NCBI GenBank assembly: GCA_946699065.1
Contig: CAMPDV010000713.1
Location: 124,001 to 188,000, forward strand
Reading direction: 5' to 3'
Length of the DNA: 64,000 nucleotides
Origin: Loxodes magnus
Lineage: Eukaryota; Ciliophora; Karyorelictea; Loxodida; Loxodidae
The notes beneath the pieces were generated by a model. It saw nothing but the letters and a program-made list of their open reading frames with translations. It did no database searches and was not told the origin of the DNA. A program made the position numbers and the translations under genes. This document shows positions 1,903 through 35,133 of the stretch, in pieces (position 1 is the stretch's first letter; every line of letters begins with the position of its first letter).

Positions 1903-1943
1903 TATAGAGTGCGTAGCACCACAATGGTGCGCATCTCTTTTTA
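1903..1943 (-). repeat. shared terminal hairpin, isolated copy
   Basis: Imperfect inverted repeat (GAGTGCGTAGCACC ... GGTGCGCATCTC) of the type found at the end of families A, B and C. An AT-rich tail lies on its left, so the parent element would be on the minus strand. The body to its right is short and degraded before a family A-like fragment begins. Confidence 0.7.
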
Positions 1944-2011
1944 GAATGTTACTAGAATTAAAATAAATAAATTTATTACTATAGTACTCATATTTTTTAT
2001 TATTATAATAC

Positions 2012-2120
2012 TATATAAAATATGGATATTGTTCGTGGTCAGGAGAATTTATAGTAATTTGATATAGTATATATTGATTGCGACTAATCTCGCACCAGTT
2101 ACCACCCATAGTGCCACTTT
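2012..2120 (+). repeat. degraded family A fragment (5' part)
   Basis: The stretch TATGGATATTGTTCGTGGTC, then GTATATATTGATTGCGACTAATCTCGCACCAGTTACC-like sequence, matches the first ~100 bases of family A (6221, 34719) with many substitutions. The rest of the element is absent. Confidence 0.55.
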
Positions 2121-2939
2121 AAAATTAATATGTTAGTTATTTTTATCTTTTTCCTTTAATTAATTTTGAATATTTTAATAAAAATACAAAATTAATTGAT
2201 CTAAATAAATTGAAGTGTTTTATACAATACTTATAACGAAAATTTGTAGATAATTAGTCAAAGTAGATAGAGGATAATTACATTCAATTAATATTAACTA
2301 AAAATAAATTAAAAACATATAAAAAGAGTTCAAGAGAAATCATATAGACGGCGAAATATTATTTGGATTTTGTAATAAGAGAAGATTCGGATTAATAAAA
2401 ATTTATATATATCATAGAAAATTAAAGTTAGAGTCATTTCAAATTAAAAAAAGAAAATCAAATTTTAAGAATTTATTTCTAAATGAAGATTAAAAGATAA
2501 AACTTTTTAAATTAAGTTAAAGTAGATCAAAATATTTAAAATTTAAGGAACGTAGCAATTTTATAATTTTTGATTAGAATGAAATCAATAATAAAATTAA
2601 AGTTAATAAAAATAATATCTAATTAAGATAATAAATAAAATAACATGATAATCTGGCAAAATAAAAATTTTGAGATAATACGTGTGGTTAAGAGTGATAG
2701 TACATTTAAAAAAAGATTATTAAAGTAAGTATCATATTTAATAATTTCATTAAATATAAATAATCATCATTTTATACTTCGCATTAAAATAAAAAAAAAA
2801 TAAAAAAATCTTTCTATGAATCTAAATTGAGTATAGATTTATTTATGATGATTTATTTGTTCGTAGAAGAAAACTTATATATTATTATTACAGAAAGTAT
2901 TTAAAGATAATATTAAATAATAAAATTTATTAAAAAAGG
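2121..2939. other. AT-rich stretch, nothing recognised
   Basis: Purine-rich and very AT-rich. There are scattered Lys/Asn/Gln-coding frames but no motif I can name. Confidence 0.4.
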
Positions 2940-3085
2940 GTAAAATTAAGTTTATAATCTTAGAGAAGAGCTTCACTTTTAACTTCTATTTGTTCCCGTT
3001 CTCTTCAGTTAGATTAGATTATAATTCTTGCTTTTTGACAAAGGAGTCAAGAGAGAATCATTTCTTAGGTGCCATTTTTTTATCT
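2940..3085 (-). repeat. short deletion derivative of the ORF1-like element at 11.4-12.3 kb
   Basis: The left part (AAATTAAGTTTATAATCTTAG and the CCCGTTCTCT segment) resembles 11440-11510. The right part (GAGAATCATTTCTTAGGTGCC) resembles 12240-12270. The ~700 bases between them in the longer copy are missing, so this looks like both ends of the element joined by an internal deletion. Confidence 0.5.
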
Positions 3086-3110
3086 ATATATGTATTAATA
3101 TAATAGTTAC

Positions 3111-3237
3111 TAGATGTTAGTTATTTCTTTTAAAAATTTCACAAATGAAGTATTTACATTTTGCTATTTAAATGAAGTAATTTATTTATAGTTATCTAAA
3201 ATATTTACAATATAACTAAAGTAGCAACTAACATCTA
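3111..3237. mobile_element. MITE-like element with 12-bp perfect terminal inverted repeats
   Basis: TAGATGTTAGTT at 3111-3122 is exactly repeated in inverted form at 3226-3237 (AACTAACATCTA). The 127-bp unit is AT-rich and non-coding. No clear target duplication longer than two bases is visible. It could also be a transcribed stem. Confidence 0.45.
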
Positions 3238-3904
3238 ACTTAGTATTATTAAATTGTAAATTAAATTAAATTAAAATTAAAAATGATATTTGTTTCATTC
3301 TCCTGGCTTTTTTATTCTTCCCAATTTCTTAACAAAATATCATAATAAAAAAATACTCTTCATCAGTATAATAAAAGATAATTTCTGCTCCAAATTGGTT
3401 AGGTATATTCATAATCTCCTTGTTCTTATTTTCTCCTCTTAGAATAATTTCTTTTAAATCAAATATTTAGGTTTATATACTTGAACCGTTTGCATAAATA
3501 AAAAAAACAATTAAATTAAAGAATTCAAACGGCAGTTGTCTTAGCTTCTTATGCTAATTTCTGTTGATTAGATTAATTCCTTTCTTTTAACTTCATATTA
3601 CTATTCTATATCTTTATCTTTTTATTGTATCCAACTATGCCCTCTAAATGTGTAAGCTTTCTAAATTCTTTATGCACATCCAAAAACACCAATAGGATCT
3701 AAAATTTAATTATTTTTTAATTTTAAAGAATTTAAATCGAATACTTCAATTCTTCTACACATAACATCTGTTATATTTTGATGTATATCCTGAGATTATA
3801 TAAAATTTATTTCTTTTATTGAATCTAGTTATATGAAAGCATCTTGAAAATTATATTTAATATTTCCAAGTTTCTTAGTTTACATTATGTATAAATAAAT
3901 TGGA

Positions 3905-3943
3905 TTATAGAGCGCGTAGCACTCTCCTTGGTGCGCAGCTCTT
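3905..3943 (-). repeat. shared terminal hairpin, copy in family B
   Basis: GAGCGCGTAGCAC and GTGCGCAGCTC form an imperfect stem, with CTATAATCC and a TAAATAAA tail at its outer side. Confidence 0.8.
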
Positions 3944-4290
3944 TAAATTTATTTTATTTAATGTTGAAAAAATAAAATTTTATTGGTTTCTCTATCCTTG
4001 TTTTCTCTTCTTGCAGTACATCTCTTTAATTTTTCCTTCCAAAGCATAGGTTGCAATATGCAATTACGGGTACATTTCCCCGACTTATGATGAAGAAAGT
4101 TTCCTCCTGGCATTCAGAGTTTTCCAGGTTGTCACATCTTCCTTCTCTTGTTATTTGTTTCTCTTCCTCCGATTTATCCTCCGTCCGCGCTCATTTTTTA
4201 GTCGCCTTGCTGGGCCTCCAAACAGCATCCGAAGTAAAGAGCTTTTCACCCTATTTAAATTATTTTTATATAATAATAAATAAATATGAT

Positions 4291-4329
4291 TATAGAGCGC
4301 GTAGCACTCTCGTTGGTGCGCAGCTCTTT
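4291..4329 (-). repeat. shared terminal hairpin, second copy in family B
   Basis: Same hairpin as at 3905, with one base changed in the loop, preceded on the left by an AATAAATAAAT tail. Confidence 0.8.
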
Positions 4330-5140
4330 TAAAAAAAAATGTTTCATACTGACAAGAATGTTTGTTACTGATAAAATTATCAGATACTGGTAGATCTTGT
4401 TCAATACTGGTATAATTATTCAGTACTGATAAAAATGTTCAATACTGATATAATTTTAGAATACTCGTAATCTTTAATACTTGCTGGAGGTCCAAGGACA
4501 TGGCAGGATTGTGTCTCATTGCATCACCAAAGCAGAGGACGACATGTGTCAATTATGGGTACTTAAATTCCCCAACCTCTGATGAAGCTCGCAATATTAT
4601 TTCTTTTTCGTTCCAGTATTAAAAATAAACGAAACCAAGTCAAGCCAACGTCGAAGGTCTAAGAATCTTATGTCTCGAGGCCAAACCAAAGCAGAGGAAG
4701 ACATAAAGTCGATTATGGGTACTTAACTTCCCCAACCTCTGATGAAGATGACCTTGTTGTTCACCTTTGAACAACTATGGCGGTTTTAAAGAATATATAT
4801 AATAAATTAGCTTTGACCCTAAAGATTACTTCCTAATAAAACTAGACTATTCTTTTATTTTATTCAACTTATATGCCAAAATTGTCTTTTTCCCACTCTA
4901 AAATTTAGTTTTTCTTGAAATTATCATTTATTATCAAATAAGTTTACTTGGCATTTTCACTCATTAATATAGTAAAAATATTTTTAAACTCCTTATATTT
5001 CTTTAAATTAGGACTTATTTCAAATATTACTATCCCCATACTAGTTTTATCAATTAATCTTAATAAACTTTAGTTAAAAGAATTTCTAATCTTTTCCATA
5101 GGAACAAAATTTAAAAAAATTAGTTTTCTTCCCAAGTCAT

Positions 5141-6210
5141 TTTATAAAAAAATTCTTCCAAATTTGGGTAAATTTAAATCAAATAAATGCAGTATTGAAA
5201 TTACAATCATTGTAATTAAAAAAATAAAGGAGATTATATAATGAAAACTCTTAATTGAATAGCAGTAAATAAGAGAAAAAGGTACCTAGAACTATAACTA
5301 TAGATATAAAAATTTGCTATAAAGCTAGCTGTTTAAAATTATTTTAGAAGCTGTAATTTTATAAATCTATTACTAAAATAAGTATTTATACTTATTTAGC
5401 TTTTAATTAAATTTAAAATTTAATTTCCAGCAGAAGGAGTAAATAGTGAGAAATAAAGGAAGCATATTTAGAAAAATAGAATATTTATTATAATGAGATA
5501 AAATTAATATAAGTAAATAGAAGATAATAGGTAACTCAAAATACGTGTCATAATGATTTTTTATTACAGTAATTTTCTCTCTACTAATGAATTGAACTAA
5601 GATATATGTATACAAATAATTTAATTTATATTTATTAAACTTACTAGAATTATAAATTATTGTGATAAATATATCAATTTATTTCTTTCTGTAATCAAAT
5701 TAAAAAAGTAAATAGAAGTATCCAAATATAAAAGTAGTAATGAATGTTAAGATTTTAAATTACTTTATATTTGAATACTTATTTAACTAGGTTCAAATCT
5801 AGTTAAATATTTAATATTTTAGATTTTAAAATTATAAATAACTTTTTTTTTAACTGACTAAATAAAATAAATAATTTGATTAAAAAACGTATTATCAGTC
5901 TAATTTTATTTAAGTTCATTCTAATAAAAGAGTTAAATGCAACTATAAATTACTTATAGCAGTAACATTTTATTTTAGTTTTTTTATAAAAAATCTGAAT
6001 TTTGTTGATTTCAGTAATTTTTCTTTCTAGAAAATGAAATTTAATTTTAATAATTATTTAAATTATTGAAATATATAATAAGGATAACAGAAATCTCTAT
6101 TAAAATTAAATTAAGATACTTTTAAAATCTTAGTTGTAATTATTTTAACAGCAAGCTTTATTAATTTAGACGAAGTTAAATCTTTTAGTATCATGAAGTA
6201 AAAAATATTG
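5141..6210. other. AT-rich intergenic, nothing recognised
   Basis: More than 80% A+T by eye. Short open frames exist under the standard code, but none has protein-like composition or a motif. Confidence 0.45.
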
Positions 6211-6650
6211 ATTTTTATTATATTATAATATAAAATGGATGTTGGCCGCGTCAGAAAAACAAGTAGGTAATCTGGTGCAGTGTATATTGCATTGCGAGTA
6301 ATCTTGCATTAGATGCCATCACGGGGGAGGGTGGATAGCTCCGTTGAGACATACCTAACTTACCCCGAGGGTTCTCTCTGACAGTATGAAAGTTTGACTA
6401 ACGGGCCTTCTAATTACCGAATTAATAACTAATTCTTATTTGGACCTTATTCAAGAAGATTGAAGCATTTGACTCAAGATTTAAGAATAATTTTTAATAA
6501 GAAGATTCCCCATTTGGAGAAGCTGACATGACTCATCGGACCTCTAGAATTTAACAAGAAACATGAGAACATTTTTCTTAATATTAAATATTAATATTGA
6601 AAGAGCTGCGCATCAATGAGGTACTACACACTCTATAATCATTTTTATTA
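6211..6650 (+). mobile_element. family A retroposon, copy A1, with 10-bp target duplication
   Basis: The unit 6221-6640 (about 420 bp) begins TATTATAATATAAAATGGATG and ends with the shared hairpin and CTATAATC. It is flanked by ATTTTTATTA at 6211-6220 and 6641-6650. The first 200 bases are G+C-rich for this genome and contain short stems such as GCGAGTAATCTTGC. The second half carries ATTCTTATTTGGACC, GAAGCATTTGACTCAAG and GACATGACTCATCGGACC. Copies differ by single-base indels, so the element is probably not protein-coding. Structure, size and target duplication fit a SINE-like element, possibly derived from a structured RNA that I cannot name. Confidence 0.8.
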
Positions 6651-6759
6651 ATTAATTTATCTTAAAATTTGCATTAATAGAACAAACTCTGTTAATTAAA
6701 TTTCTTGTATTAAATATTTTCTATTTTTCTTTAATATAATAATTTTTTTATTTAGAAGA

Positions 6760-7710
6760 CATATTTAAGACAATGGTTTAGAGGAAAGGTATATCTTCAT
6801 CAGAAATAGGGGAAAAGAAATGCTCATAATCAACTGTTGTTTTCCTTTGCTTTTGTTTTGAATAGTGATATAACCTTTCATTGACCTTACGAAATCAAGA
6901 AGTGTTTAATTTTATCAGTATTGAACTCTTAAAGAACTGAGCATTATTTAAGGATTAAGTGCTCTATAATTTCAAATTATTTTTAGTCTTTAATTAAAAT
7001 TATTTATAGGGATGAGATAATCTTCTTCTCAAGGAAAAATAAACAACCTAGACATTAACTATTAAAAGAGATGCAACAAATTCACTAATTAAATAAGGAA
7101 ATTAGCAGCAAGTCGATACATAAGAGGTAAATTTGCAATTAAAACAAATAGAAAAGAGACTCGACCAATTTACCTTATATACATAATCAATAGTCCAATA
7201 GAATTATAGCAATTGAGATCTTATGGATATTGAAAAAGAGCAAACATTTATTTAAAATTATTATCTGAAAATATATATTAAGAATTTGATGCTGCAAGAG
7301 GTAGGCAATTTAAGACAATGTTAATAGTCCAACAAAAGTTAAGAAAAGAGGAAAAAAAACTTTGAAGCAATTGAATCGAATAGATTGCACCAAAGAAGGT
7401 AAAATTAGAAGAAAAACATATAAAGGAATGGAATTACATGAATCAATAACAGAAGTAAATGACATAATAATGAAGAAAATGCTAAAGGAGTTAAAGTAAG
7501 CAAAATTCTGAAAATTTAAAAAGATAACTATTATCAGAAGAAGATGAAAACAGAACTTAAGAGAAAGGATATAAAGAAATTTATCAACAAGTTCGGAAGC
7601 AGCACGAAGTTTTCATAGATAATAATACAATCACCCTTAAACTAAACCATGATAATCCTATTAAAGGAGGAATCACGTTAATCTATTATAATTATTATTA
7701 GTTAAAGTTA
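6760..7710 (+). mobile_element. retroelement-like unit with one protein-like frame
   Basis: 6790-6840 is a diverged version of the family B internal module (CTTCATCAGA, GGGGAA, CATAATCAACT). A frame from ATG 7012 then reads about 220 residues rich in Lys, Gln, Glu and Arg (for example RKEEKKLW, LLSEEDENRTQEKG), ending near LKLNHDNPIKGGITL. The last bases (ATCACGTTAATCTATTA) recur at the end of the unit at 36085-36605. I recognise no domain. The link to family B suggests a longer relative of that element. Confidence 0.4.
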
Positions 7711-7719
7711 AAAGTTAAA

Positions 7720-8479
7720 AAACTTTGTTAAAGCCTTAGTAATCAGCCATCTGACCTATTCTATCAGCTTGTCTCTATTAGTTTGTCTTGAAATCCTACT
7801 AGACTTAGTTAGGCGGTGTAGCACTTCATTAGCGCACCATCCTTTAATATTCTGAATATTTTTAGTCTTGCATGTAGCGTTCCTAATTGTTTCTCCAAGG
7901 ATTAAGATTTGAATTAAAGAATTTTTTTCTATAAATGTTTCCGCTTTATGTTGGATATATCCTAAATAGTTTTCTAAAAATATCTTATTTATTCTTTCTT
8001 TAAATTTCGCTTAGTTAGTAGCAGTATTTTCATTGGTGTTATTTATTGCACACGTAACATTTTATTCTTCTTTTAAACTATTATTCCTGTAACACTTATT
8101 TAATTTAAATTTACTACTTATTTTAAATAAACGTTTACTGTTTATTTTAAATTGAGGCTTCATTTTCTATTTCCATAGAATCTGATTAATTCAGTTAAAA
8201 CGAAAATGGCGTAACCTGAATTTATTATTAAATTTAAAGATTTCTTTGTTCCAGTTTGTCTTCTATTTCTTATGATTATTAATATTGTTTCTCAAGTAAA
8301 GACGTTATTAGTTTTTCTAATTTTTCTACTTTATTAGTGAGGTATCTATTTTTAAACATAAACTCTTTTAATGACTTAGATAATATTTCTATTTGAGTTT
8401 GTGCCGGAAGTTTTTTTAGTTCTGGATTTCCAAGTGGTTAATGTTCGTCATATCAATCATATTTCTCACTTTCACTCAT
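7720..8479 (-). mobile_element. ORF1-like retroelement unit a: coiled coil plus CCHC zinc knuckle
   Basis: Starting at ATG 8479 and read with the reassigned code, the frame runs over 200 residues. A Lys/Glu/Leu-rich segment (residues ~35-75; LTNKVEKLEKLITSLLEKQ) should form a coiled coil, followed by a Gln-rich stretch. Then comes CYVCNKQHQWKYC, a Cys-x2-Cys-x3-His-x4-Cys zinc knuckle of the kind found in Gag and in LINE ORF1 proteins, where it binds nucleic acid. A variant of the shared terminal hairpin lies at 7809-7848 on the 3' side. The same organisation recurs at 11.4-12.2 and 14.7-15.9 kb on the same strand. It is likely an ORF1/Gag-like part of a retroelement; no reverse transcriptase follows it. 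Confidence 0.6.
7809..7848 (-). repeat. diverged terminal hairpin of ORF1-like unit a
   Basis: GGCGGTGTAGCACTTCATTA then GCGCACCATCC resembles the hairpin of families A-C at the GTAGCAC and GCGCA positions. It lies on the 3' side of the zinc-knuckle frame. Confidence 0.5.
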
Positions 8480-8559
8480 TGTAATTATTTTGCTTTTTTA
8501 TTATTTAGAGAATTTTCCTGTTTAAATATTTGTTCAAAGTTCTGTTATTTCTTAAATCC

Positions 8560-8900
8560 ATTTTATTGGTAATAATATAATATAATAATATCCTTTAAGC
8601 AAGGACTAGGAAAATCATATACCAAATAGAGATTACTACCTTTAAAGAAAAGCCTAGGAAAGAGCTAAAAATATAATACCCTCAGAAATCTCTTATTTTA
8701 CCATCAAGTAGTAAATAAGTTATGGTTAACTGAATAAAGTGGTACTGAACCTCCTGAAAAAGGTCAAAATGCCGTAGATAGATAATAAGAAACTATTGAA
8801 AAAATTTTAAGTAGCATAGAAAATAGAATCAGAAATCATGATCTAAGAAAGCGATCTTGGCACCTTCTGAAATTTTAAAAACTGAACAGTCAGTCATAGC
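8560..8900 (+). other. short protein-like stretch, unrecognised
   Basis: One frame reads TEQSGTEPPEKGQNAVDRQQ followed by ETIEKILSSIENRIRNHD. The composition is protein-like and rich in G-starting codons, but there is no start, stop or motif. It is probably a retroelement fragment. Confidence 0.25.
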
Positions 8901-9158
8901 AAAATAAATTGTAATATAAATATTTCTTTTATCAATATTATATAAATTATTTCTCATATATTTCTTTACCTAATTATTAAAAGCCTTTTTACTTTAAAAT
9001 TTATGTAACTTTTTTAGTATTCAAACTTAATAAATCTAAAATTTGCTTAAAAATAAGATAAAATATAAAAAATCTTAAATTTTATAAATGATTTTAGTTA
9101 TAAAAATTATGAATTACAGTTAAGAAGAAATAAAACAGAAAATTGCTATTATTATATT

Positions 9159-9476
9159 TAAATAGGAAGGAACAATCTTCCAACTGAAATTTACTTAAAT
9201 TATGGTACCAGGAAAAAATCCATAGATGACGAAGAACCGAACAAGAATCTTGGTAGGAACTAAGAGAAGACAAGATTGAAGAGGTATCAAGTAACGTTAA
9301 TAATGAAGATGTAAGATACTAAGGTCTCTTAGGGAGAATTCCAATAACAGCCCTATAGAAGATACTACTCACAAAGAAATGCTAGCACAGTGGAAGACTT
9401 CAGAAAATAATTTTTTTAATTTTAAAAATCTTTATTAAAGAGTTGCGTGCCATTGATATGCTACGTGCTCTCTAAT
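9159..9476 (+). mobile_element. family C retroposon, copy C1
   Basis: It matches 21867-22172 in inverted orientation along its length: GGAAGGAACAATCTTCCAAC at the 5' end, GAAATGCTAGCACAGTGGAAG near the 3' end, then the shared hairpin (9437-9476) and a TTATTTATTTATTTATT tail. It is about 310 bp, non-coding and less AT-rich than its flanks, consistent with a SINE-like element. Confidence 0.7.
9437..9476 (+). repeat. shared terminal hairpin of C1
   Basis: AAAGAGTTGCGTGCC ... GCTACGTGCTCTCTAATC, an imperfect stem followed by a TTTA-repeat tail. Confidence 0.7.
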
Positions 9477-9499
9477 CTTATTTATTTATTTATTATCAT

Positions 9500-9917
9500 T
9501 ATATATAAAATGGATGTCGACTGCGTCAGATAAATTAGTAGGTAATCTGGTGCAGTGTATACTGCATTGCGAGTAATCTCGCACTAGATGCCACAACGGG
9601 AAAGGGTGGATAAGCTCAGTTGAGACATAACTAACTTACCCCGAAGTTCTCTCTAGCAATATGATAGTTTAACTGACAGACCTTCTAATTACCAATTTAA
9701 TAATTAATTTTTATTTGGACCTTATTCAAGAAGACTGAAGTATTTGACTCAAGATTTAAGAATAATTTTTAATAAGAATATTCCCAATTTGAAGAAGATG
9801 ACATGACTCATTGGACACTCTAGAATTTTAACAAGAAACATGGGAATATTTTTCTTAATATTAAATATTAATATTGAAAGAGCTGCGTTCCAATAAGGTG
9901 CTACATTCTCTATAATC
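9500..9917 (+). mobile_element. family A retroposon, copy A2
   Basis: Near full-length match to 6221-6640, starting ATATAAAATGGATGTCGACT and ending with the shared hairpin (9876-9917). It sits directly after the tail of C1, so its left target duplication cannot be separated from the tail repeats. Confidence 0.78.
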
Positions 9918-11429
9918 ATATTTATCCATTTTTATAATTATACCTTGAATCTAATCAGACAAATAAAAACAAAAAACTGGAAATATTGACTTAAAAATAG
10001 TTAAATAAATAGCAACATTTCAATCAATTAAATTTCTCTAGATTTTATAATACTCTATAAGTAAAATGAATAATAATATAAAAATATAAATACAGAATAA
10101 GGAAAATTAAACTATAAAGATAACTCAAATAAATAAATCTAAAAAGTGATAAAAAGCTATTTTAATTTATATATTCAAACAATAAATTTCAATTAAAAAT
10201 GTTATAATTTAAATATAGTCACTTTTAATTACTTAAATCCACAACTTTAAATCTTAATTTTATATTTTTTGTTAATTTTATCAATAATAAAAGTGATTAA
10301 ATAATTAAAATTAATACTTATAAAATATCTAAAAGATTTTAAATTTGATTAATGTATTGCAAAAATAAAAAGACTTATAAGAAAAATATTAAATAAGAAA
10401 ATAGTATAATTTACTTTATATAATGTTTTTTAATTTAGTTATTACTTAAATAGGTATTATTAATTTAATATTAATATAATGATATTAGTTGTTAAAGATC
10501 TGAAGTAAATATATTAAAGTCATGCTTTTATTATAGCATAAAATTAACTAACTAGGATTAGTTTATACTTATTACAAATGTATTTAAGTAGATTTTGTAA
10601 AAGTCATAAAATTTATAAATTTTTTCAATATCCAGTTTCTTGATTCAGTGTATGATCGTTCCTTAATATTAGAAAAAATAGAATGGAACATTTAACTTCT
10701 AAAAATGTATATAAGTAAAATAATTAATTATAAATATTTAAGCTAATAATATATCTAGCATTCATATTTTTTCTCATCTATTAATAAAAAAAGTGATTCC
10801 TTATATATAAGAGAGTATATTATATAATAAAATGACTGAAAGTATTAATTAACTTTCATATTTGAAGATTTTAAATATAGATTCTAGCAAAAATATATCT
10901 AAAAATAAAAAAAGATTAATTAAACTTAAGTACTAATATATCTTATAACTTACAATTATCTACTTTCATAAGTTATTGCTTAGATGCTTTTTTATAGAAT
11001 AAATTAGTTTAAATTATTACTTTCTACTGTAAATGAAACCTTAGAAAATTTAAATTGTATTAAATAATATATAAAAATTGTAAATAATCATAAGAATAAA
11101 CTTAGTAAATTAATATAAAATTTAAAAATATAAGATTTGACAAGATTTATGATGGTTGGTATAAATATTAACTAAAAAGAGATGGAATAAAATACTGCTT
11201 TAAAATTGAATCTTTATTTTGAAAGGTAGATAATTTAATATTAATAGAATAATGAACCTAATTTACGTACCAATTTTCCTCTATTTTGTAAAGTACCAAA
11301 CCTTAGTTAGTTAGAAATAATAGTTTAAGGAGCCAAGGATTTGGAATTAAAAAATATATTTAATTTTAATATGAATTATTTAAGATAATAATAAGATGAT
11401 ATGTGCTTAATGATTAAATTAAAAAACAA
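9918..11429. other. AT-rich intergenic, nothing recognised
   Basis: About 1.5 kb of very AT-rich DNA with no recognised gene or shared repeat. Confidence 0.45.
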
Positions 11430-12275
11430 TAAAAGATAAAATTAAGTTTATAGTCATAGAAGATAGTTTCACAGACATCTTCCATTTGATCCCATTCTCT
11501 CTCAAATTAAAGGACTGTGCAGGACTTAGTTAGCCAACTATTCTTATCTCCCCGAAATACATCTATCACTCTAGTTTCTTCTATAATTACTATTCTATTC
11601 ATTAGTTCTTGAGTTATTGAACTTCTTCCTTTATATTAACCCTGCCCTAGTTGATCGAAATCATAAAAATTATTCTATTATTTATTTCTTATTTATTCTT
11701 TCAATTTCTATTTTCTTTCAGCATTTTATCCATTGATGGTTCTTCTAGCATAAAAAGCGTAAAATCTCTCTTCAAGAAAATTTCATCTTTTTTGTATCTC
11801 ATTATTATTGTTCAGGTTTAATTTAAATTGGGATGCTTGCTTACTAACTTATTATTTTTAAATTACATCTTGCTATTATTCTTACTTAACTAAGAGTTAT
11901 TTTATTTGATATTAGAACTAAGAAAATTGAAATTAAAACATTTACAGTATTTGTTCTATTATTTATTTTACCAATTCATATCTTTATACTATTTATTATT
12001 ATGGTCTTTTAATAGCCTTATCTAGCATAGGAATATAATGTTCTATGCTTTGCAATATTATATCTAAAGCTTCCTCCAGTTTTTCTATTTTTTTTAATTC
12101 CTTTAGTTCATTTTATTTATTATTTATTCTTTGCTGGACGGATTGAGCAAAAGATTCTTGAGATTATTGTGTTGATTCGTTAAGGAAACTATTCCTTTGG
12201 TTCTCTTAATTATTCATATTTTTTATAAAAATTAGTTAAGAGAAATCTTTTATTTCTTAGGCGCCATTTTTCCAA
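11430..12275 (-). mobile_element. ORF1-like retroelement unit b: coiled coil, damaged zinc knuckle
   Basis: From ATG 12217 the minus strand reads ~190 residues: a Gln/Ser-rich start, then a long Lys/Glu/Leu-rich helix-like stretch (ELKELKKIEKLEEALDIILQ), then more Gln-rich sequence. In a neighbouring frame it reads FLCQKNHQWIKC. This aligns with the knuckle of unit a (CYVCNKQHQWKYC), but the first Cys codon TGC has become CGC (Arg) and a frame change is needed to reach it. The unit is therefore decayed. A short version with both ends but no middle lies at 2940-3085. Confidence 0.55.
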
Positions 12276-14340: not shown

Positions 14341-14344
14341 TTAG

Positions 14345-14712
14345 AAATAAAATAAATAAATAATAAATAAATTTGATTATAGAGCGCGTAGCGCTCTCGT
14401 TGGTGCGCAGCTCTTTAAAAAAAAATGTTTCATACTGACAAGAATGTTTGTTACTGATAAAATTATCAGATACTGATAAACCTTGTTCAATACTGGTATA
14501 ATTATTCAGTACTGATAAAAATGTTCAATACTGATATAATTTTAGAATACTCGTAATCTTTTCTACTTACTGGAGTTCCAAGGACATGGCAGGAAGGTGT
14601 CTCATTGCATCACCAAAGCAGAGGACGACATGTGTCAACCTCTGATGAAAATGACCTTGTTGTTCACCTTCGAACAATTATGGCGGTTTTAAAAAATAAT
14701 ATATAAATAATA
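14345..14712 (-). mobile_element. family B retroposon, shorter copy B2
   Basis: It starts (3' side) with an AATAAATAA tail and the shared hairpin at 14377-14416. It then matches 4330-4560 almost base for base (TTTCATACTGACAAGAATG, CCAAGGACATGGCAGGA). It jumps to AACCTCTGATGAA...GGCGGTTTTAAA, skipping one internal repeat present in the 4.3-kb copy. This is a deletion between repeated GTGTCAA/CCTCTGATGAA units. Confidence 0.72.
14377..14416 (-). repeat. shared terminal hairpin of B2
   Basis: GAGCGCGTAGCGC ... GTGCGCAGCTC, nearly identical to the copy at 4291. Confidence 0.8.
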
Positions 14713-14718
14713 AAAATT

Positions 14719-14767
14719 GATTATAGTGGAAACACCTTCAATGGTTCTGCCACTGTTTGTTCTTTTA
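14719..14767 (-). repeat. variant terminal hairpin of ORF1-like unit c
   Basis: The position, the TTGATTATAG flank and the TTCTTTTA end match the shared hairpin, although the stem sequence has changed. Confidence 0.5.
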
Positions 14768-15950
14768 TATTATATGAGATTAAATTAACTTTTCCTTCGA
14801 TCTTCTTTATTTCCTTTAGATTTTTTTTATCTTTTTTTTTTTATTAATATCAAGTAAGCAATTGGATTAAATAACTCCAAATTATCTCTTTTTTTCATAT
14901 TTATTTATCTCTTTTTCGTTTATTTTTTTTAATCTGAGCTTAGTTAATTATCTATATCAAAATGAAATTCTTTAAAAATTTTAATTTTCTTATATCAATC
15001 TTTTGTTTCAAGACTCCACCTTTTAATTGAAGATTGAACATTTTAATTCACTTTTTAAATTTTATAATTTCCTATTTCTCTACATGGACTATTTAAAATA
15101 ATAATAATAATAATATACTTAAAGTTAGTAGAGTTTTGCATTCTCTGGAATTGCAACCAGTTTCTGCGGACAGTTTTTTTAACGTGGGTGTGATCCACAA
15201 CCTTTTTATTAAGTGGAAGGTTACCACTGTAACCGTTCAAGTGGTCTTGCAAAAAGCTTTTATTTGTAGATCCCTGTTGGAGTTATTCATAGTTTATTGA
15301 GTTGTCTCCACGTTCTTTTCTGCTCTTATTCGTTTATTTTCTTTCATTATCAACAGTTTTTTAAAATATGTTGATTTGATTTGCAACATCAACAAAGTTT
15401 GTATTATTGTCTTTATTTCGTTCTTTTTTATGATAATTTATTTTCTATATTTTCTAATCTTTTAATGAAACTTGTAGCAATCATTTCTTTTTCTGGATTC
15501 AATTCTGTTTTTAATTCTATTGATATTTTTTCTATTTCCATTTTCGTGTCGTATTTAAAATTTTATTATTATTAAGTTCAGAGTTATTCTTCCGTTATTA
15601 ATTTGCTACAAATAAGTTATCTTCTAAGTATTAGTAATTCGTTGTTCTAATCTTCTATGTTACTCATTAGTTCCCGTATTTTTTCGCCTAAGTTGTAAGT
15701 TGTTTCTTCATAATTTGAGATTATTTTTTACATTTGGTCTAATTAAATTTAAAGTTTTTGATTAGTTTCATTTTTAGGTTAACTTATCTCTATTTATCCT
15801 ACCATAACTTTACCTTCCGAAGAAGAGCTTGACTCCTCCTATTGTTATTATTTTTTCTAAATTTCTTTTGCTGCTTTTCTCTTTAGGTTTCTAAGTTAAT
15901 TTTTTGAGAGTCGAAGAGATTAATCCATTTTTTTTAAATATGGACTATTT
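14719..15950 (-). mobile_element. ORF1-like retroelement unit c: coiled coil and zinc knuckles
   Basis: ATG at 15928 opens a frame, under the reassigned code, of about 290 residues. It has a basic start, Ser-rich SSSSSEGK, and a long heptad-like stretch (residues ~55-190 with YNLGEKIRELMSNIEDQNNE). Then comes CWCCKSNQHILKNC, a perfect Cys-x2-Cys-x4-His-x4-Cys knuckle (one Trp encoded by TGA). A second knuckle-like GCGSHPRQKNCP follows ~60 residues later. The 3' end at 14719-14767 is a hairpin (GTGGAAACACC ... TGCCACTG) with TATAATCAA and an AT tail like that of families A-C. It is likely an ORF1/Gag-like retroelement protein; no catalytic domain is present. Confidence 0.6.
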
Positions 15951-16250
15951 AAAATAATACTAGGTTACTAAATATAGTAATAGGTGATTATATTAATACT
16001 AAACACATTTATCTGATTTGAATTGAGTTTGCAACTTTATAGCATGGAAATAATTATTGCTATCTTTTACTGAAATAAGTAATTTACTTATATATACTTT
16101 TTCCTTCGTCTTAATTTTTAATCCTAATTGAGATTTATGAAGAGCACTAAGTGAATTTACATTAATTATTTGATTCCTATAACTAATAATAGAAATATAT
16201 ACTTATATTCAAATTATTTTTTAATTAATTTTAATTAAATTTTAAACTTA

Positions 16251-16535
16251 AAGAGTTTTTAGAAGGCAACTTCTTGCAGTTTAACGACCCCAGCACTCCC
16301 TTCATGGAATAACGGGGATATCCTGTTGCTTTCGAAAAACAGCTGCCAGGGAGCTCCATCGCTATAGGCAGCCAGGTTTCAAGCCTCTACCAGGAGTGGA
16401 TAATCAAAAGAAAGGTGTTCCCTTGCAAAGGTTGACTTTGACCAGGGACTTTCACAGCGACAGGAAAGGAACTTGTTCCTAGCCATAAAACCAGAAAGTA
16501 TGATTCAGAAGGTCAATCTTACCTCCCACCATCTT
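16251..16535 (+). mobile_element. family E retroposon, copy E1
   Basis: A ~285-bp block that is about half G+C, in strong contrast to its flanks. It matches 33397-33711 in inverted orientation (AATAACGGGGATATC, GGGAGCTCCAT, GGAAAGGAACTTGTTCC, TAGCCATAAAACCAGAAAG, TCCCACCATCTTTT). Copies differ by indels, so it is not protein-coding. GGTTTCAAGCC is vaguely like a Pol III B box. Flanking low-complexity DNA hides any target duplication. Confidence 0.72.
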
Positions 16536-18876
16536 TTTAATTATATTTTTTTTAATTAATATTCATAGAAAAATTATCTTAGAAAATATCTAGTTTTAGG
16601 TTTGTAATTTCATTAGATTTAGACAAGTAAGCATACATGAAATTGATATTGAATGCATGAGACTATCTTTATTTAAATTCCATTATCATTCTTAATCTTT
16701 TGCTTATTAATAAATAATTAAGCAATCCTGAATAAAATTTAATATTTCTATCATTCATTAATGATACTTATTGGCTAAGCATAATCTTTAAAAATATACC
16801 TGATATATGGATTTTAAATAAGATAATTTAAATTATTAAAAACTTTAATTTTTTAAAATTATTTCCTAAGTAACGATAAAGCTTATTAATGTTCTTTGTA
16901 GTAAGCTTAGGATATTCTTTATTAAAGGATTGATATCATACCAAATGTTAAGCTATTACAATATTTATAGTTTTAATTATGATATAATTAGAGTATTTTA
17001 GTCTTTCCTAAAATAGGTTTAATTCAAAGTTATTTTAGAATACTAATTTTAGCTTATAGAGATAGTTATATATTAAGCTCTTTTATGCTTAAGTTGCATG
17101 CTTTAAATAAGAAATCTCTTGATTTATTTAAATTCTGTCAAATGATAAAAAGTATTTTTTATGTATTTTTGGTAAACTTAGCAAAGATATTCTAGCTTTT
17201 AGACTTATTTCGAAACTCATTAGAAAGAACTAACAAATCATTAAAAGTATATTTCTATTATTTTTGATTGTCATCTAGAAGAGAAACTTAACCTAAGATT
17301 TTAGTTTACTTTTTTAATTTTTTTTGGACAAAACAGGAATAAAAAATTATCAAAAAGAGAAAAATAGTTTTTAGAAATCCTTTGATTTAAAAAGCCAAAG
17401 GAAATTTCAAAATTATTAAGCTAAATCTTAGTATCTCTTCATTATTAAGTAGCTAAGAAGATACGAATTCATAAAAGAAACGAAGGCAGAGGTATTTAAA
17501 ATCCAAAATTGTTTGGTCGAAACACTATAATTTAAATAAAATAAATGATTGCTTAATTTTTAAGGCTTTTAGTAAAAAATATAAAATCATAATTTTTTGG
17601 AAATCTTAGAATAAAGTGAAACAACTGGTATAATTTATTGAAAAGAACATCAGTTAAAATGCCTTTGAAAATCATGGATACTGTTTTAAATAACTTTATA
17701 TTTAAGCCTGCAATTTCCAGCAAAATATCTAAGGGATGATTTTTGTAAAAACAATCATTACAAGAAAATAATATAATAGTTAAAAAAATAAATCATTGAA
17801 TCTTTTATCTATTGAACTTAAACAATTAGATTTTGCAACATTCAACTCGAACTTAGTATAATAGAATTAACTAAAAATTAAATTCTAAAAAATGATTATT
17901 TGCAAATATATTGATCAATGAATTATAAATTTAATTAGAATTTTTAATGAATACAATTTCAAAAATATAGAGTTACTAGTTGTAATTAAGGCTTTGAGGA
18001 TATATTGGAATTATTTAAAATAGTTTCTTCCAAATAGATTTAAAGCTAAAAATTTCATATTTAGCAAAGTTATTTCCTTATATATCTTTATGTAATTTTT
18101 TTATTTGACATACTTGAATAAATCAATCTAAATTCTAAATTTTAAGTTTCTCATATAAATACTTCAGAACAGCATCTAAAAAGAGATTCTCTATTTATAA
18201 TAATGCTAAAGTTTATTTTCATTCATTTAGATGATAAAATGATTTTTAAATATAAAAAGCACTTATTTATTATATAAGTTATGTGTTTTCACTAGTAGTC
18301 ATTTAAAATTGCACTATTAATTAAAAGTCTTGCTAAAAAGGTAATTTCTTCATTGCAATTTGCGCATAGTCTAAAAAGAAATAACAATTTAGTATCTTAG
18401 TAATATTTCTAGTACTTAAAGAGAAAAACTAATTATCATACACTATTAATCTTGCAAATGTGAATTTAAAATTTTTAATTCTAATGATTTAAAGTTAAGC
18501 AGAAGCATAAAATATTAATTTATAGTACTAAATAACTAAATCAGTTCACAATCTTCAAAACTTACAATTTATACAAATTTTGTTTACAATTTACGAAATA
18601 AAAAAGCCAAATAACCCTTTTCTATTTTCCTTTTATTTTATCTGATATAATTTCAAACAAATTATATCTTAGTAAGAAATACAAAATATATAAAAATAAA
18701 ATTTCTAAGATTTAGTCTTGTATTTTAAACTAAATCAAAGTTATATAATTTCTCTTATTATTTAGCTTTTTAATTTTAATAAATAAATGTTTATTTCATT
18801 TTTAGTCCTATAAGCATAAAATATTCCTTTATAATTAATAAAGTTCTTTGATTCCATCTAAAATTTAATTTTAATA
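16536..18876. other. AT-rich intergenic, nothing recognised
   Basis: About 2.3 kb without a recognised gene. Lys/Asn-rich open stretches occur in several frames, as expected when only TGA terminates. Confidence 0.4.
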
Positions 18877-21387: not shown

Positions 21388-21866
21388 AAAAATTTTATAA
21401 GAAAAATACTATTTAAACAAGCTATCTTAAAATTAAAATAAAGCTATACTACTAATATCTCAAAATACCAAAATAGATAAAACATATTCTAATATAAACT
21501 AAATATGTTTTAAATTACAAGATTATCAGGATATTAATTAAATACCATGATAGTTATAACTATTATTTAAAATTGATTAATTAAATATTAAACTAAGAAC
21601 CAAATTTAAAGATTTAAAGTTTTACTTAATTATACATTCATAAAAGATTAAATAAAGTATAAAAAAGAAACAGAAAAGTAAATATAAAAAATAGAATTTA
21701 TTCATGTTTAAAAAATAGATTATCTTAACTAAAAAAAGAGAACATTTTTTAAATAATAAAATATTTTCTGCTTTTAACTAATATTTTTTAACTATTTATT
21801 CATGCATTTAAAATATTGCTTAAATTTAGTATATTAAATAATATAATTAAAATAAATTAATTAAAT
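21388..21866. other. AT-rich intergenic, nothing recognised
   Basis: Downstream flank of the small membrane-protein gene up to the tail of C2. Confidence 0.45.
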
Positions 21867-21904
21867 TATAGAGCGTGTGGCACCTCAATGCTGCGCAGCT
21901 CTTT
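21867..21904 (-). repeat. shared terminal hairpin of C2
   Basis: GAGCGTGTGGCACC ... GCTGCGCAGCTC with an ATTAAATT tail on the left. Confidence 0.72.
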
Positions 21905-22172
21905 AATAAAGATTTTTAAAGTTAAAATATTCCTTGCTGAAGTCCTTCCACAGTGCTAGCATTCCCTTGTGAGTTTTGTCTTCTATAGGGCCGCGATCGG
22001 AATGCTACCCTAACAGACCTTAGTATCTGGCATTTTTCGTCATTAATGCTACTTGATGTCACTTCGATCTTGTCTTCTCTTCTCTTCTCTTCTCTTGGCT
22101 GGTCCTTCGCCTATGGAGTACATCCACGTACCAGAATTTAAGTGAGTTTCAGTTGGAGTATTGTTCCTCCTT
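21867..22172 (-). mobile_element. family C retroposon, copy C2
   Basis: Inverted match to 9159-9476 across its whole length, with the shared hairpin at 21867-21904 on the left. It contains a TCTTC microsatellite (22072-22096) where C1 has only two units, so the repeat has expanded in this copy. Confidence 0.7.
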
Positions 22173-23486
22173 ATTTTATAATAAATATAATAAATAGCTA
22201 TTAAAATGAATAAAGATATAAAATATGATATATTATATATATACTGTATTAATCCTAGAAAATAAATAAATCTCTTATTTCCTGATAAATATAAAGCAGC
22301 TTTTATAAATAATTTAACTTAAACTAATATTATATTAATAGATATTAAAAATATTTACTATTATTCTAAACGCAGCTTCATTATAATGGAACTATATAAA
22401 ACACACAAAAACTAAAGGCTAGAAGTATATAACAGTAGAATTAAATTAAATAAGCAAATATAAAAGAAGGCATTTAGATGAAATGTTTTATATTTACTTA
22501 TATAAATTTAAATAAATAAATAAACTAGCAAATAGATAATTATATTTATCACTATTAAATTTTAAGATATATATTTAATACTTTTAACTATAAGTAACTA
22601 AATATTAATTCATTTTATTTATACTTAAAATTTAAAATAGTTATAACTGTATATATTTTAAATTTCATAACATCTTAAAAATTAAACTATAAGAGCTTTT
22701 TATTAAATTAATAATTAAAGTATTGATTAGTCTCAATTAAGTTAACTATAAGATATCTTATAAAATAGAATTTATCATTTTAATATAATTTAAAGTTTAT
22801 TATAAGATTGATTGATAAATTAAACTGAAATTTAAAAGATTGAAACTTTTAAATGAAAATAGTATAGCAAATGGAAGGTAAAAGTATAAAGAAATTAAAT
22901 TAAATTGTATTTATTATTTTAGAATTTATCATTTAATGGCAAACTTAGTGTTTAGTTTTATTTCATAATTAAGTTGAAAAAGTTTGATAAACTGAATATA
23001 GAGAATTAAAATTTAATATAGCTGAGTTATTGTTTTGTTATATATTAAGTCAAACTACTAAGCATGCTTATATTTTAAAAGCATATAATTATAAAAAATG
23101 TAATAAATATAATAAAGCTTAAAATAATTAAGCTTTTAAAATAACTTCAGTATAATTAAAGGCTAATAAATCTTCATTTTTAAATAATAAAACATAATAT
23201 CATATTGAGATACTTGTTCGGTTTTAATAATTATATGTTCTGAGTATATCTAGAATTAATATAAAAAATGGTATTCTAAGCAATCCAACTAGATTAATCT
23301 GGAATCATTCTCTATTAATAATCGAAAATTTAATAAATTTTAATGCCTCAAGTTTAGGTTTGCATGATAATAATTAGTATGAAAAACGTGATTAATGATA
23401 ACAAGATAATTGTAAGCTCATTTTTCATTTAATTTTGTAATTATTATTTAATGAAAAATAATATAATTAAATAATAAATAAATATG
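22173..23486. other. AT-rich intergenic, nothing recognised
   Basis: About 1.3 kb of very AT-rich DNA without recognised features. Confidence 0.45.
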
Positions 23487-23862
23487 ATTATAGAGCGCAT
23501 AGCATCTCATTGGAACGTAGTTCTTTCAATATTAATATTCAATATTAAAAAATGTTTACATACTTATTGTTAAATTTCTAGCTGTCCAATAAGTCACGTC
23601 AGCTTCTCCAAATGAGGAATCTACTTATTAAAGATTATTATCGAATCTTGAACCAAATGCTCCAATCTTCAATAAAATCCAAATAAGAGATAGTAATTAA
23701 GTAATTAGTAGGCCCGTCAGTCAAATGTTCATATTGCTAGCAAGAATGCTCGGGCAAGTTAGGCTTGTTACTTTCGAACTTACCCACCCTTCCCCATTGT
23801 TGCATCTAGTACGAGATTACCTACTAGTTCTCCTGATCGAGGCCGATATCCATTTTTTAAAT
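23487..23862 (-). mobile_element. family A retroposon, copy A4
   Basis: Inverted, diverged but near full-length copy of family A. It runs from CCATTTTTTAAATATA (5' end at ~23862) through CGAGATTACC, TTACCCACCCTTCCCC and CACGTCAGCTTCTCCAAATG to the shared hairpin at 23487-23527. Confidence 0.75.
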
Positions 23863-27535: not shown

Positions 27536-27861
27536 ATTTTTATAAATTTAATGATATAGCCAAATATATAAAAGCTTATGATTAAATATTAATATCTTTA
27601 GCTATTTTTAATGATATAAATCTAAATTTTAAATATAGGAAGTCTAAACTAAATTAAATTTAGTTCAATTTCCTTTTTTCATAAGATAAATCTCTAAAAT
27701 TATTTTGTAATTAGCTAATTTTGATTATGCTCAATCTATTAAAACCCTTAAATATTTAACTCTTCTCAATTTAGTTTTCTATTTAATTAGCTATATATTT
27801 GAAAACGGTCTACAATACTTATATTAGTCTATAAGGTTTCTAAGATTAACTACTTTATAAA

Positions 27862-28815
27862 ATGAATTAAGAAGATAATTAAATTCTTAAAATTTTATTC
27901 CTTAGAAAAATAATTAGAAGCAAATTAGATTTGAGTAAAGAACAAATATTTTCCAAGTTTGGCATTGGTGTAGTAAAATATGAAGTATGTCCTAGCTTAA
28001 AAAAGTAGAAAGAGTTTAAGAATATTTCCACTATAATAGTCAATTAAGATTATAAGCAAAATTATTCTATAGAAAATTAAAGTTTCTAACAGCAGTAAAT
28101 CGAAACTAGTGAAACTGATAGCTTTTGTACTTAAGTAGAACAAATATATGATGATGGTCTGCTTATATCGGGAGGATTTAAAAAAGGTTAAAAAAGATTT
28201 ATTGTTCATTAAGAGGATTAAAAAATTAAGAACTTTTAAATGTAGTTTAAAAGAAGTTTTCATAGAACTTGCTTTAATAAAAAAAATCTAATATATATAA
28301 TTTCTGGAATTACAAAGTTTAATACTCAAGATGCTGATGTAGTAGAATGTGAAACTTTTGATATTAGAAATAATCATTTTAAAACTATAAAATCTATATT
28401 AACTCCTGCAAATACTTTTGGATGCTCATTAAACAATGACAAAGTTTTTATGTTTGGAGGAGATAATAGAAATAATCAGAAGCTGTTGGATATAATATAG
28501 TAATATGACAGCAAGAAAAATGAATGAATTTTGTATGAGCAAAAGCTAACTAAAGAAGCTATGATAACTGCAATTTGAATTTACCCTCTAAATCATTTTT
28601 TTATTTACTCAAATGGAACTTAAGTAGACTCTTAAATATTTGATTTAAAGGAAATAACAATTTGAGGAGATAGATATACTAAAGGATTCTTTGATTACAC
28701 TTAACCAGTTTTAAGTAGGAATAGATTGTATTAGTATAACTGAAAATCTAATTTATTCATCTATGATATTTTTACTGGAAGATGGGAGACAATATTAGAG
28801 AAGTAAAGCAAATGA
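27862..28815 (+). CDS. kelch-like protein, intact copy K1b
   Basis: ATG 27862 (after TTATAAA) to TGA 28813-28815 gives 317 residues with no frame break. Visible blades: LLISGGFKKGQKRF (~residue 110), IYIISGITKFN (~147), VFMFGGDNRNN (~198) with QQYDSKKNEWILYE, IFIYSNGT-type and QIFDLKE segments, and a last LFIYDIFTGRWE. These have the Gly-Gly and Tyr/Trp spacing of kelch repeats (about five), so a beta-propeller used for protein interaction is expected. Four Trp are encoded by TGA and one by TGG; many Gln are TAA/TAG; the stop is TGA. The first ~60 residues carry no known domain. The substrate or partner is unknown. Closest relatives are K1a (703) and K1c (38298). Confidence 0.78.
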
Positions 28816-30231: not shown

Positions 30232-30400
30232 TGGGTCTACCACATCCTTCCAAATCAAAAAAAATCAAACTTACTGAAGGTAATGCTTAGTGCTAAATTT
30301 TAACGGAAAAATTGTTGTGGTAAAATGAATAGGTTTTTCGATAGAGATTTGTAGTAAATTCCTCAATAATTAAAAGAAAAAGAGATAGAGAAATTTTATT
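30232..30400 (+). pseudogene. decayed 5' copy of the small membrane-protein gene
   Basis: It begins MGLPHPSKSKKIKLTEGN, clearly related to MGQLHPTKSKKINPTEGQ at 20827. One base is then lost (GGTAATGCTTAG for GGGGTAACGCTTAG) and the similarity fades within about 150 bases. No transmembrane part follows. Confidence 0.6.
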
Positions 30401-30734
30401 ATAAATAGTTATCATAGAATCATTTTAAACTATTTTTAAACTAAGTTATTTAATAAAAAGGATAGAGAATATATTAGATTTAGTTTAAGGAATAAGGAGC
30501 TTCTAATGTAATAATCACTTAATATTATTAGGAAAATAGTTTTAAAGTTTTGAATCCTAAATAAATCTAACACTTGCTAGTAATTAAAGATAAATTATGC
30601 TTTATTTTACTTTATAAAAAGTTACTTTTTAAAGAAGAAATCACTTCAATAGAAATTTAATGAAATGAAGTTATTGACATGAATTAGTTATTTCATTTAA
30701 ATTATGTTCATAAAGTTCAACCATCGTTCTTTTT

Positions 30735-33090: not shown

Positions 33091-33099
33091 TTTAAAGCC

Positions 33100-34112
33100 A
33101 TTCCTAATATATTATTAGTGAAGCTTAAATGTATTGCTAAATATAAATGTAATAATGCTTTATAAAATAGAAATTAAGCCTTAAATACTTTATAAAGAGC
33201 TTAAAACTAATATAATTATAAACTATCAATAAATCTAGAATAATAGTAGTTTGAACCAATATTAAAGAGATTTATTTAGCATTGGTTAAGAGTGGCTAAA
33301 AGAAAGTGATCTAAGTCGAAAATAATTAAAATTTTGAAATAAAAATAATTATAATAATTAATTAACTTGGTTCAACCATTAATAGGAATAACTCGAATAA
33401 TCGAAAAGATGGTGGGAGCTGAGAATGACCTTCGTGACAACACTTTCTGGTTTTATGGCTAGGAACAAGTTCCTTTCCTGTCGCTGAGAAAGTCCCTGAT
33501 CAGAGTCATTTTCTGAAGGGAACACTGTCTTTGAGATTATCCGCTCTTGGTAGGGGCTTGAAGCCTGGCTGCTCATAGCAATGGAGCTCCCTAGCATCTG
33601 TGCCTGGAGCACAACAAGATATCCCCGTTATTACATAAAAAGAGAGCGTCGGGTCGTGCAATCGGAAAGGAGTTTCCGGTCCAAAAACTTTTTTAGTTGA
33701 AATTAACTAATTAGGAATAACTCGATTAAAGAGTTCAATTTTTAAATAAAGTATAACTTTGAATTTGCTTGGATCTTCAATTTTTTGAATTTTGATTATT
33801 TTATAAATGCTTTTCTTGATTTATTCCTATAGGTCTAATCCCAATCATTTGCTATTGAAGATATTAATTTCTTGTTAGATAAGGCAAACTTCTTTATTTA
33901 CTTGTAGCATTTTTTTGTTGAAAAGCAAGTAATCTTAATTGCAATAAATCCTGAATAAGTATTCCCATTATTTTTCGTTTATTCTTTTTTTTTCGTCTAA
34001 ATTGATAGCATCTTCCCATTTTATTTACTGATCGTTTACAATATCAGCACATTATTAGGCTATTATAAAAAATGGTTTGACTTATATTTTAATATGATAC
34101 CTTTTTAGACAT
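33100..34112 (-). pseudogene. unrecognised protein-coding stretch interrupted by retroposon E2
   Basis: From ATG 34112 the minus strand reads MSKKVSYQNISQ and, after a frame change, NLDEKKRINEKQWEYLFRIY, KEVCLIQQEINIFNSKW and IYKIIKIQKIEDPSKFKV up to ELFNRVIP. There element E2 is inserted, and RVIPING resumes on the other side thanks to the target duplication. Composition is coding-like to the insertion and weaker after it. It may be the 5' part of the adjacent LINE or an unrelated gene. No domain recognised. Confidence 0.38.
33383..33725 (-). mobile_element. family E retroposon, copy E2, with 14-bp target duplication
   Basis: The 315-bp insert 33397-33711 is flanked by perfect TAGGAATAACTCGA at 33383-33396 and 33712-33725. 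It matches E1 (16251-16535) throughout and is close to half G+C. The 14-bp duplication is typical of target-primed insertion by a LINE enzyme. A short standard-code open frame across 33379-33612 is only a consequence of its base composition. Confidence 0.82.
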
Positions 34113-34718
34113 TACTAAAAATAAGAGATTAAGAATATAAGATAATATTTATAATTATAAATAACTTTTGTACAAATATTAAGTTAAAGCATAAAGTTAT
34201 TATTCTACTAAGGTAAGAAATATAATTAACATATGAAAAAATAAAAATATAATCTTAATTAAAAATAAAATGTCTCATTTAGATAAAATAGCTAAGTACA
34301 AATATACTTATTAAAAATTAAATTCCTTAAATAATTAAAACTTCTTTAATTTAATTTTAATAATTTATACATTAGTTCTATTTTATTATAATTTTTAGTA
34401 TGAAACTGAAATTATTTTTCGTTATTTTTTAAAGAAAAAATAGCAAAAAATTAAAGAATTTTAATTTTAAGAATACTAGGAAATATTAAATTAGAGGTAT
34501 TTTTATTTGAAACTATCTTAATTATATAAATGATAAATACAGACATTAATTAAAATATTAATAGATAGATCATTGTTTTATTATGTTTTATTTTAATAAC
34601 AGTAATTTAATTTGGAAATATCACTTGCTTATTAAAAATTAAAATTTTAAGTACATATTTAAATTTACATTTTTTTAGAATCTAAGCATAAAATAGATAA
34701 AAGAAAGTTTATTATAAG
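34113..34718. other. AT-rich intergenic, nothing recognised
   Basis: No recognised content between the minus-strand ATG at 34112 and copy A3. Confidence 0.45.
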
Positions 34719-35133
34719 ATATATAAAATGGATGTCGGCCGCGTCAGAAAAACAAGTAGGTAATCTGGTGCAGTGTATATTGCATTGCGAGTAATCTCGC
34801 ACTAGATGCCCCCACGGGGAAGGGTGGATAAGCTCTGTTGAGACGTACCTAACTTACCCCGAGGGTTCTCTCTAGCAGTATGAAAGTTTGACTGACGGGT
34901 CTTCTAATTACCGACTTAATAACTATCTCTTATTTGGACCTAATTCAAGAAAACTGAAGCATTTGACTCAAGATTTTAGAATAATTTTTAATAAGAAGAT
35001 TCCCCATTTGGAGAAGCTGACATGACTCATCGGACCACTAGAATTTAACAAGAAACATGAGAACATTTTTTGATATTAAATATTAATATTGAAAGAGCTG
35101 CGCGCCAATGAAGTGCTAAGTGCTCTATAATAA
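34719..35133 (+). mobile_element. family A retroposon, copy A3
   Basis: Best-preserved match to A1: TATAAAATGGATGTCGGCCG at the start, GCGAGTAATCTCGC stem, GGGGAAGGGTGGATAAGC, CTTACCCCGAGGG, and the shared hairpin at 35092-35130. Similarity to A1 is above 90% by eye, so both are fairly recent insertions. Confidence 0.82.
35092..35130 (+). repeat. shared terminal hairpin of A3
   Basis: GAGCTGCGCGCC ... GTGCTAAGTGCTC followed by TATAATAATTTTTATTTATT. Confidence 0.75.

Follow-up and report, generated by a model that had tools for sequence, protein, structure and literature searches.

What does a hairpin of about 40 nt do at the 3' ends of repeats whose bodies differ, and how did those repeats come by it? 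The question arises from a 64-kb stretch of Loxodes magnus DNA (64,000 nt, hereafter the window). The original prediction named ten copies of such a hairpin there, assigned them to at least three non-autonomous families (A, B and C), placed variants at the ends of zinc-knuckle units, and proposed convergent capture of one priming signal, which a LINE should also carry.

Hairpin copies and the bodies before them

A search of the window with the 3' arm of the hairpin (GCTACGCGCTCTATAATC, up to three mismatches) returned ten copies, four on the forward and six on the reverse strand, against 0.01 expected from 100 shuffles. These were the ten predicted copies, none lay elsewhere at this threshold, and each was followed by an AT-rich tail. 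By alignment, nine could be assigned to a body, namely A (4), B (2), C (2) and a fourth family, E (1); for the remaining one, alignment gave no body partner beyond a weak match (Table 1). A hairpin-like stretch at 6931-6970 (+), which is 70% identical to the copy at 6600 and ends in CTATAATT, is perhaps a decayed copy. Sequence resembling the head of family A, with no hairpin close downstream, was also seen at 2020-2110 and, by eye, at 36080-36230 (+).

Table 1 Hairpins and hairpin-terminated elements in the window.
Feature	Position	Strand	Remarks
Hairpin copy	1900-1940	-	Loop ATTGT, as in LINE2
Family E SINE-like element	3890-4252 (tail end approximate)	-	Hairpin 3903-3944
Family B element (long form)	4262-4790	-	Hairpin 4288-4329; E head 35 nt on
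Family A element	6229-6660	+	Hairpin 6600-6640
Family C element	9164-9500	+	Hairpin 9437-9477; A head 26 nt on
Family A element	9504-9930	+	Hairpin 9877-9917
Family B element (short)	14345-14693	-	Hairpin 14375-14416
Hairpin of another sequence (AGTGG..CCACT; ATAATC and an AT tail follow)	14719-14754	-	Directly precedes B element
Family C element	21850-22172	-	Hairpin 21864-21904
Family A element	23456-23859	-	Hairpin 23486-23526
Family A element	34722-35150	+	Hairpin 35092-35132

Two repeats of about 850 nt encoding a CCHC knuckle were located at 7700-8589 and 15098-15935 (-), with partial copies, 95-98% identical, at L056, L051, L031 and L033. Judged by eye, they end in an ACTTTAA-like sequence and an AAT-like tail, not in a hairpin. 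The variants expected to close these units do not do so. At 7809 the motif is internal, the repeat running on to 7700 in L056 (95% identical), and the 14719 hairpin lies outside the repeat, since the latter already stops at about 15098 in L031 and L033. The zinc-knuckle repeats were therefore rejected as hairpin-ended ORF1 units, although the LINE described below does have an ORF1 containing a CCHC knuckle. The window also holds another dispersed repeat, an inverted-repeat pair at 16293-16544 and 33397-33647 (79-88%), also present in L041 (80% and 93%), and one block in three diverged copies (665-1641, 27824-28799 and 39003-39232; 60-85%), possibly gene paralogues.

The genome searched comprised 705.7 Mb in 7,843 contigs; for the Loxodes magnus MAC assembly, a size of 706 Mbp has been described, along with about 2,700 RVT_1 copies and codons whose reading as sense or stop depends on context (PMC11441545). 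An 18-nt hairpin arm, with up to one mismatch, matched at 11,895 positions, and its reversed control at none. The sequence before the hairpin was assigned for the first 30 exact arm matches listed, on contigs C1-C3. Fourteen carried B, six A, three C and three E, and two (L040 and L043) were truncated LINE1 copies, so that 26 of the 30 end a member of A, B, C or E and 28 have a recognised body; none was recognised at L050 and L059. In two of the six A copies (L031 and L057) the match spans only the last 42-79 nt of the body, and two of the three C copies are divergent (62-69%). The reuse of one stem-loop by at least three non-autonomous families thus extends to at least four in the genome sample. 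In-register similarity among the 30 copies was found upstream of the hairpin in 25 and downstream in two, which belong to one duplicated locus, and this sharing of upstream but hardly any downstream sequence bears out the predicted 3'-terminal position of the hairpin.

Family-specific patterns, at up to three mismatches, gave 3,588 matches for A, 5,524 for B, 544 for C, 2,010 for E and 761 for the LINE1 3' end, with zero for every reversed control. The A, E and LINE1 patterns reach into the hairpin, that of B lies just before it and that of C in the body; duplicated contigs are among the sequences counted, as is at least one tandem array (C45), and the cut-off of these counts differs from that of the arm count (up to one mismatch), so that the two are not convertible into fractions. 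In the array (G000 C45:1095308-1125035), successive 3' ends of family A are spaced ~1.4 kb apart, all on the same strand, so that here a SINE-like element is part of a tandemly repeated unit.

Rfam, run over the whole window at E 1, returned one unrelated tRNA and matched no element at gathering score; narrower searches, limited to the A and the B+E stretches, produced five matches, all below gathering scores and judged to be chance, C being covered by the window-wide search. One of the five (E 0.16) overlaps the hairpin of B, but on the opposite strand. Pol III A and B boxes, scored in one representative per family, were no better than in shuffles. For these reasons the elements are called SINE-like. 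A self-cleaving module in B and E was considered by eye; two of three module copies fold into a three-way junction, but with z scores of only -0.5 to -0.8, and the idea was dropped.

LINE partners and the predicted fold

A LINE ending in the hairpin was sought among reverse transcriptase (RT) loci. Profile PF00078 gave 3,403 candidates, of which the best 150 were scored and 48 of these examined, several being duplicated loci. Their 3' ends carried the main hairpin in 38 cases, a LINE2 variant in two and a LINE3 hairpin in five, and none was seen in three. The main hairpin was present in 29 of the 30 best loci, the exception (L005) diverging just before it; in these 29 it follows the RT match on the same strand at a distance of ~1,330-1,360 nt, and AAATTTATTT-like sequence comes next. 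Five additional loci comprised two of the main type (L064 and L066), one LINE2 (L062), one LINE3 (L063) and one without a hairpin (L065), and 13 further loci comprised seven of the main type, four LINE3, one LINE2 and one with none. The RT reading frames contain TAA, TAG and TGA, which fits the context-dependent codons of Loxodes magnus.

The element behind the main type, LINE1, is about 5.46 kb long, with two ORFs, and is of the APE type. One copy (L061, the same locus as L001) combines an APE-like endonuclease and an RT in ORF2 (Exo_endo_phos_2, 6e-11; RVT_1, 1.4e-35). Of four loci compared at the 5' end, C97 and C222 start no more than a few bases apart, and the C80 and C413 pieces were unmatched. 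The closest PDB matches by sequence were L1 ORF2p (3e-22) and R2 (3.1e-20). With a full-length LINE ending in the hairpin in hand, the objection that no LINE carries it fails.

Over aligned parts, residue identity is 64% between LINE1 and LINE2 and 40-44% between LINE1 and LINE3. LINE3 ends in a different stem followed by ATAATT and an AT tail, a terminus fixed by two unrelated 3' flanks; judged by flanks, its five RT loci represent two insertions. The LINE3 arm matched 912 times in the genome against 23 in the reversed control. Of eight such arms inspected, seven have a LINE3 body (some being duplicates); the body at L084 is a different one, which may point to a LINE3 partner.

The main hairpin has a predicted fold of 12 pairs (-16.1 kcal/mol, z -3.4) with a U bulged out of the 5' strand and three nucleotides bulged out of the 3' strand. 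These three are UAC in the minimum-energy fold and, in the equivalent register that served for counting, CUA. Other hairpins that were folded (LINE2, LINE3, A, B/E, and the 7809 and 14719 motifs) had z scores of -1.9 to -2.6. From predicted folds and a descriptor scan, the terminal stem-loop is kept in both LINE and SINE-like elements. TATAATC stands directly 3' of the stem, followed by a simple tail, which is (ATTT)n-like after LINE1 and most of the A, B, C and E copies shown and a T run after LINE2-type copies.

Relative to the main hairpin, that of LINE2 has one stem pair swapped (A-U to U-A), and two LINE2 copies differ by an additional paired change (C-G to U-A). Covariation in a first alignment of 16 hairpins, decayed copies included, was not above shuffles (88.0% against 87.0%). 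In a set of seven representatives, picked after that null result by keeping six rows, dropping ten (the B/E form and divergent C copies among them) and adding one LINE2 copy, 97.6% of cells were paired against 91.8% in shuffles. Neither this value nor the covariation score of the set was reached by any of 500 shuffles; for the remaining measures the observed value was reached by 5, 19 and 124 of 500.

Solo hairpins and insertion sites

The objection that the hairpins might occur mostly alone does not hold for the main type (28 of 30 with a body) and nearly holds for the LINE2 type. A sample of 28 exact 20-mer LINE2-type arms, all on the forward strand of contigs, reduced to 21 distinct sites once duplicated flanks were merged. 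Ten of these are solo, seven have LINE2 sequence upstream and four another shared body (L098, L108, L114 and L116, of which L116 has a damaged 5' arm). Among the seven, L106 has no intact 5' arm, and L112 has some 25-30 nt of LINE2 sequence only, the sole site breaking off there. A count of the LINE2-type arm at two mismatches (6,049) was not used, as it overlaps the main type. The main-type hairpins L050 and L059 may be solos too.

At the ten solo sites the 5' junction falls at the base of the hairpin, give or take a few nucleotides. TTATTA or TATTAT, a motif picked after the flanks had been inspected, occurs in the 22 nt before the hairpin at eight of the ten, compared with 7% of control positions. 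Downstream flanks were compared by eye. A 33-nt upstream match between L093 and L097 speaks against full independence of the sites, as does L110, which has 39 nt of C body at 118-156 nt upstream and so may have inserted into a C tail. Random 5' truncation would be expected to give scattered junctions, unlike those seen; a 5' end so nearly fixed points to either a small, discrete hairpin RNA copied by a LINE or an RT stop, with the RT halting at the hairpin base and integration still completed. Tentatively, and with somewhat more doubt than confidence, the hairpin plus its tail (about 50-60 nt) may itself be a minimal retroposon. Sharing of tails between LINEs and SINEs is already known, and on a thin literature search the solo hairpins are the more novel point.

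Exact TTATTATA lies no more than 35 nt upstream of 16 of 30 elements, with A, B, C and E all represented; the control rates were 0.7% for window positions and 5.3% for shuffled flanks. When one mismatch was allowed, the figures were 28 of 30, 14% and 43%, respectively. Two B copies whose starts were not clear are left out of these numbers. Target-site duplications were not detected in 34 SINE-like copies, the longest shared word averaging 7.35 nt against 7.99 nt in mismatched controls, in a test that used exact words in AT-rich flanks and in which reliance on the motif put three starts (L031, L044 and L047) in the wrong place.

The head of another family begins 25-35 nt after the hairpin in 3 of 40 hairpin copies, against 0 of 4,000 control stretches, and in none of 29 LINE1 hairpins. 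Two of the three nested cases are B followed by E, which could be one composite. The 14719 and L084 hairpins both precede B. Retroposons stand head to tail in one orientation at 3890-4790, 9164-9930 and 14345-14754 of the window, at L036/L037 and at L084, as if the AT tail itself were a target.

Role and origin of the shared terminus

In our view the hairpin most probably serves a LINE group of this ciliate as its 3'-terminal signal for recognition and priming. LINE1 ends in the ~41-nt hairpin, TATAATC and an (ATTT)n-like tail, and A, B, C and E, which bear the LINE 3' end on other bodies, could be copied by the LINE machinery through target-primed reverse transcription. The presence of one LINE hairpin on different bodies suggests that they borrow that machinery via the hairpin. 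ORF2p would then bind and need the hairpin, and the SINE-like RNAs would be mobilised in trans.

Independent capture of the LINE tail by each family is a possible history, although we lean against it. It agrees with the body representatives of A, B and C, which gave no match to one another at E 0.01 and short, weak ones to LINE1 (for C and E, 29-77 nt, E-value 0.002-0.005), and with loops that differ by family (AATGA in A, ATTGA in C_L035, AACGA in LINE1). B and E, the one pair of bodies with similarity at E 0.01, however, have in common a longer-loop form of the hairpin and a 62-nt module (76%), which the long form of B carries twice; their tails are thus probably not independent, and replacement of bodies by template switching on one ancestral tail would look alike. 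The predicted convergent capture is therefore partly supported, being weakened by what B and E share.

It is unlikely that the hairpin is instead a signal for 3'-end formation or stability of Loxodes transcripts, comparable to the histone stem-loop, with the RT using only the AT tail or a free 3' end and the common hairpin a result of common RNA processing. TATAATC and a simple tail directly after the stem would allow a processing role, and the SINE-like bodies have no recognisable Pol III boxes. Yet wherever a body was recognised (28 of 30 copies) it was a repeat, either LINE1 or a member of A, B, C or E, and three LINE lineages each have a terminal hairpin sequence of their own, as RT co-evolution would give. 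That the short families are merely 5'-truncated or internally deleted LINE copies can be dismissed as extremely improbable, since this describes two of the 30 sampled copies whereas 26 have A, B, C or E bodies, the LINE1 matches of C and E are those noted above, and the 5' ends of the SINE-like families recur at fixed places.

If recognition through the hairpin is correct, a single small RNA signal would be used in a ciliate by a LINE, by several families of short elements and perhaps by bare hairpins. This would supply a LINE/SINE system to a ciliate whose interspersed repeats were mostly unclassified, and the co-occurrence in one genome of three LINE lineages, each with its own terminal hairpin, would offer natural tests of co-evolution between RT and tail and of the least RNA needed by target-primed reverse transcription.

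An earlier description of Loxodes repeats includes LINE-type elements of 5-6 kb with RVT_1 and Exo_endo_phos_2 and about 3,000 copies each, like LINE1, which, by description rather than by consensus comparison, may be one of them. The main text of that description does not contain the term 'SINE' and leaves most interspersed repeats unclassified, and the parts consulted describe no hairpin or sharing of tails. No such LINE/SINE arrangement in ciliates was found among the papers listed on ciliate and protist SINEs and Loxodes retrotransposons, nor, in a thin search, a paper on several SINE families on one LINE; in one ciliate genome, SINEs are listed at 0.10% among repeats (PMC8790277). Stem-loop-dependent LINE/SINE pairs are established elsewhere (PMC4176376, PMC3747384). 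In the accessible text of a survey of 58 SINE/LINE pairs, Entamoeba SINEs are cited and 'ciliate' and 'alveolat-' are absent; a plant L1 lineage is reported there to have hairpins with compensatory changes (PMC3747384). As in those pairs, the SINE-like 3' ends in Loxodes are LINE-derived; most SINE rows seen in the survey have tRNA promoters, unlike the Loxodes families, in which the tRNA-, 5S- or 7SL-related head with A and B boxes of Pol III SINEs was not found.

In the terms of known systems, the Loxodes arrangement corresponds to the 'stringent' LINE/SINE type, binding by the RT being presumed from sequence: the SINE-like 3' ends are homologous to the 3' end of a LINE of the same genome, and a short repeat tail follows the conserved 3' region. 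The closest known stringent pairs, with stem-loops not compared base by base, are those of eel UnaL2 and of zebrafish ZfL2-1 and ZfL2-2; the partner SINE of UnaL2 is UnaSINE1. Loxodes differs from them in having bodies with neither an Rfam tRNA match nor a Pol III box, in its host, probably a karyorelict ciliate, and in the at least four SINE-like families that are carried on one tail.
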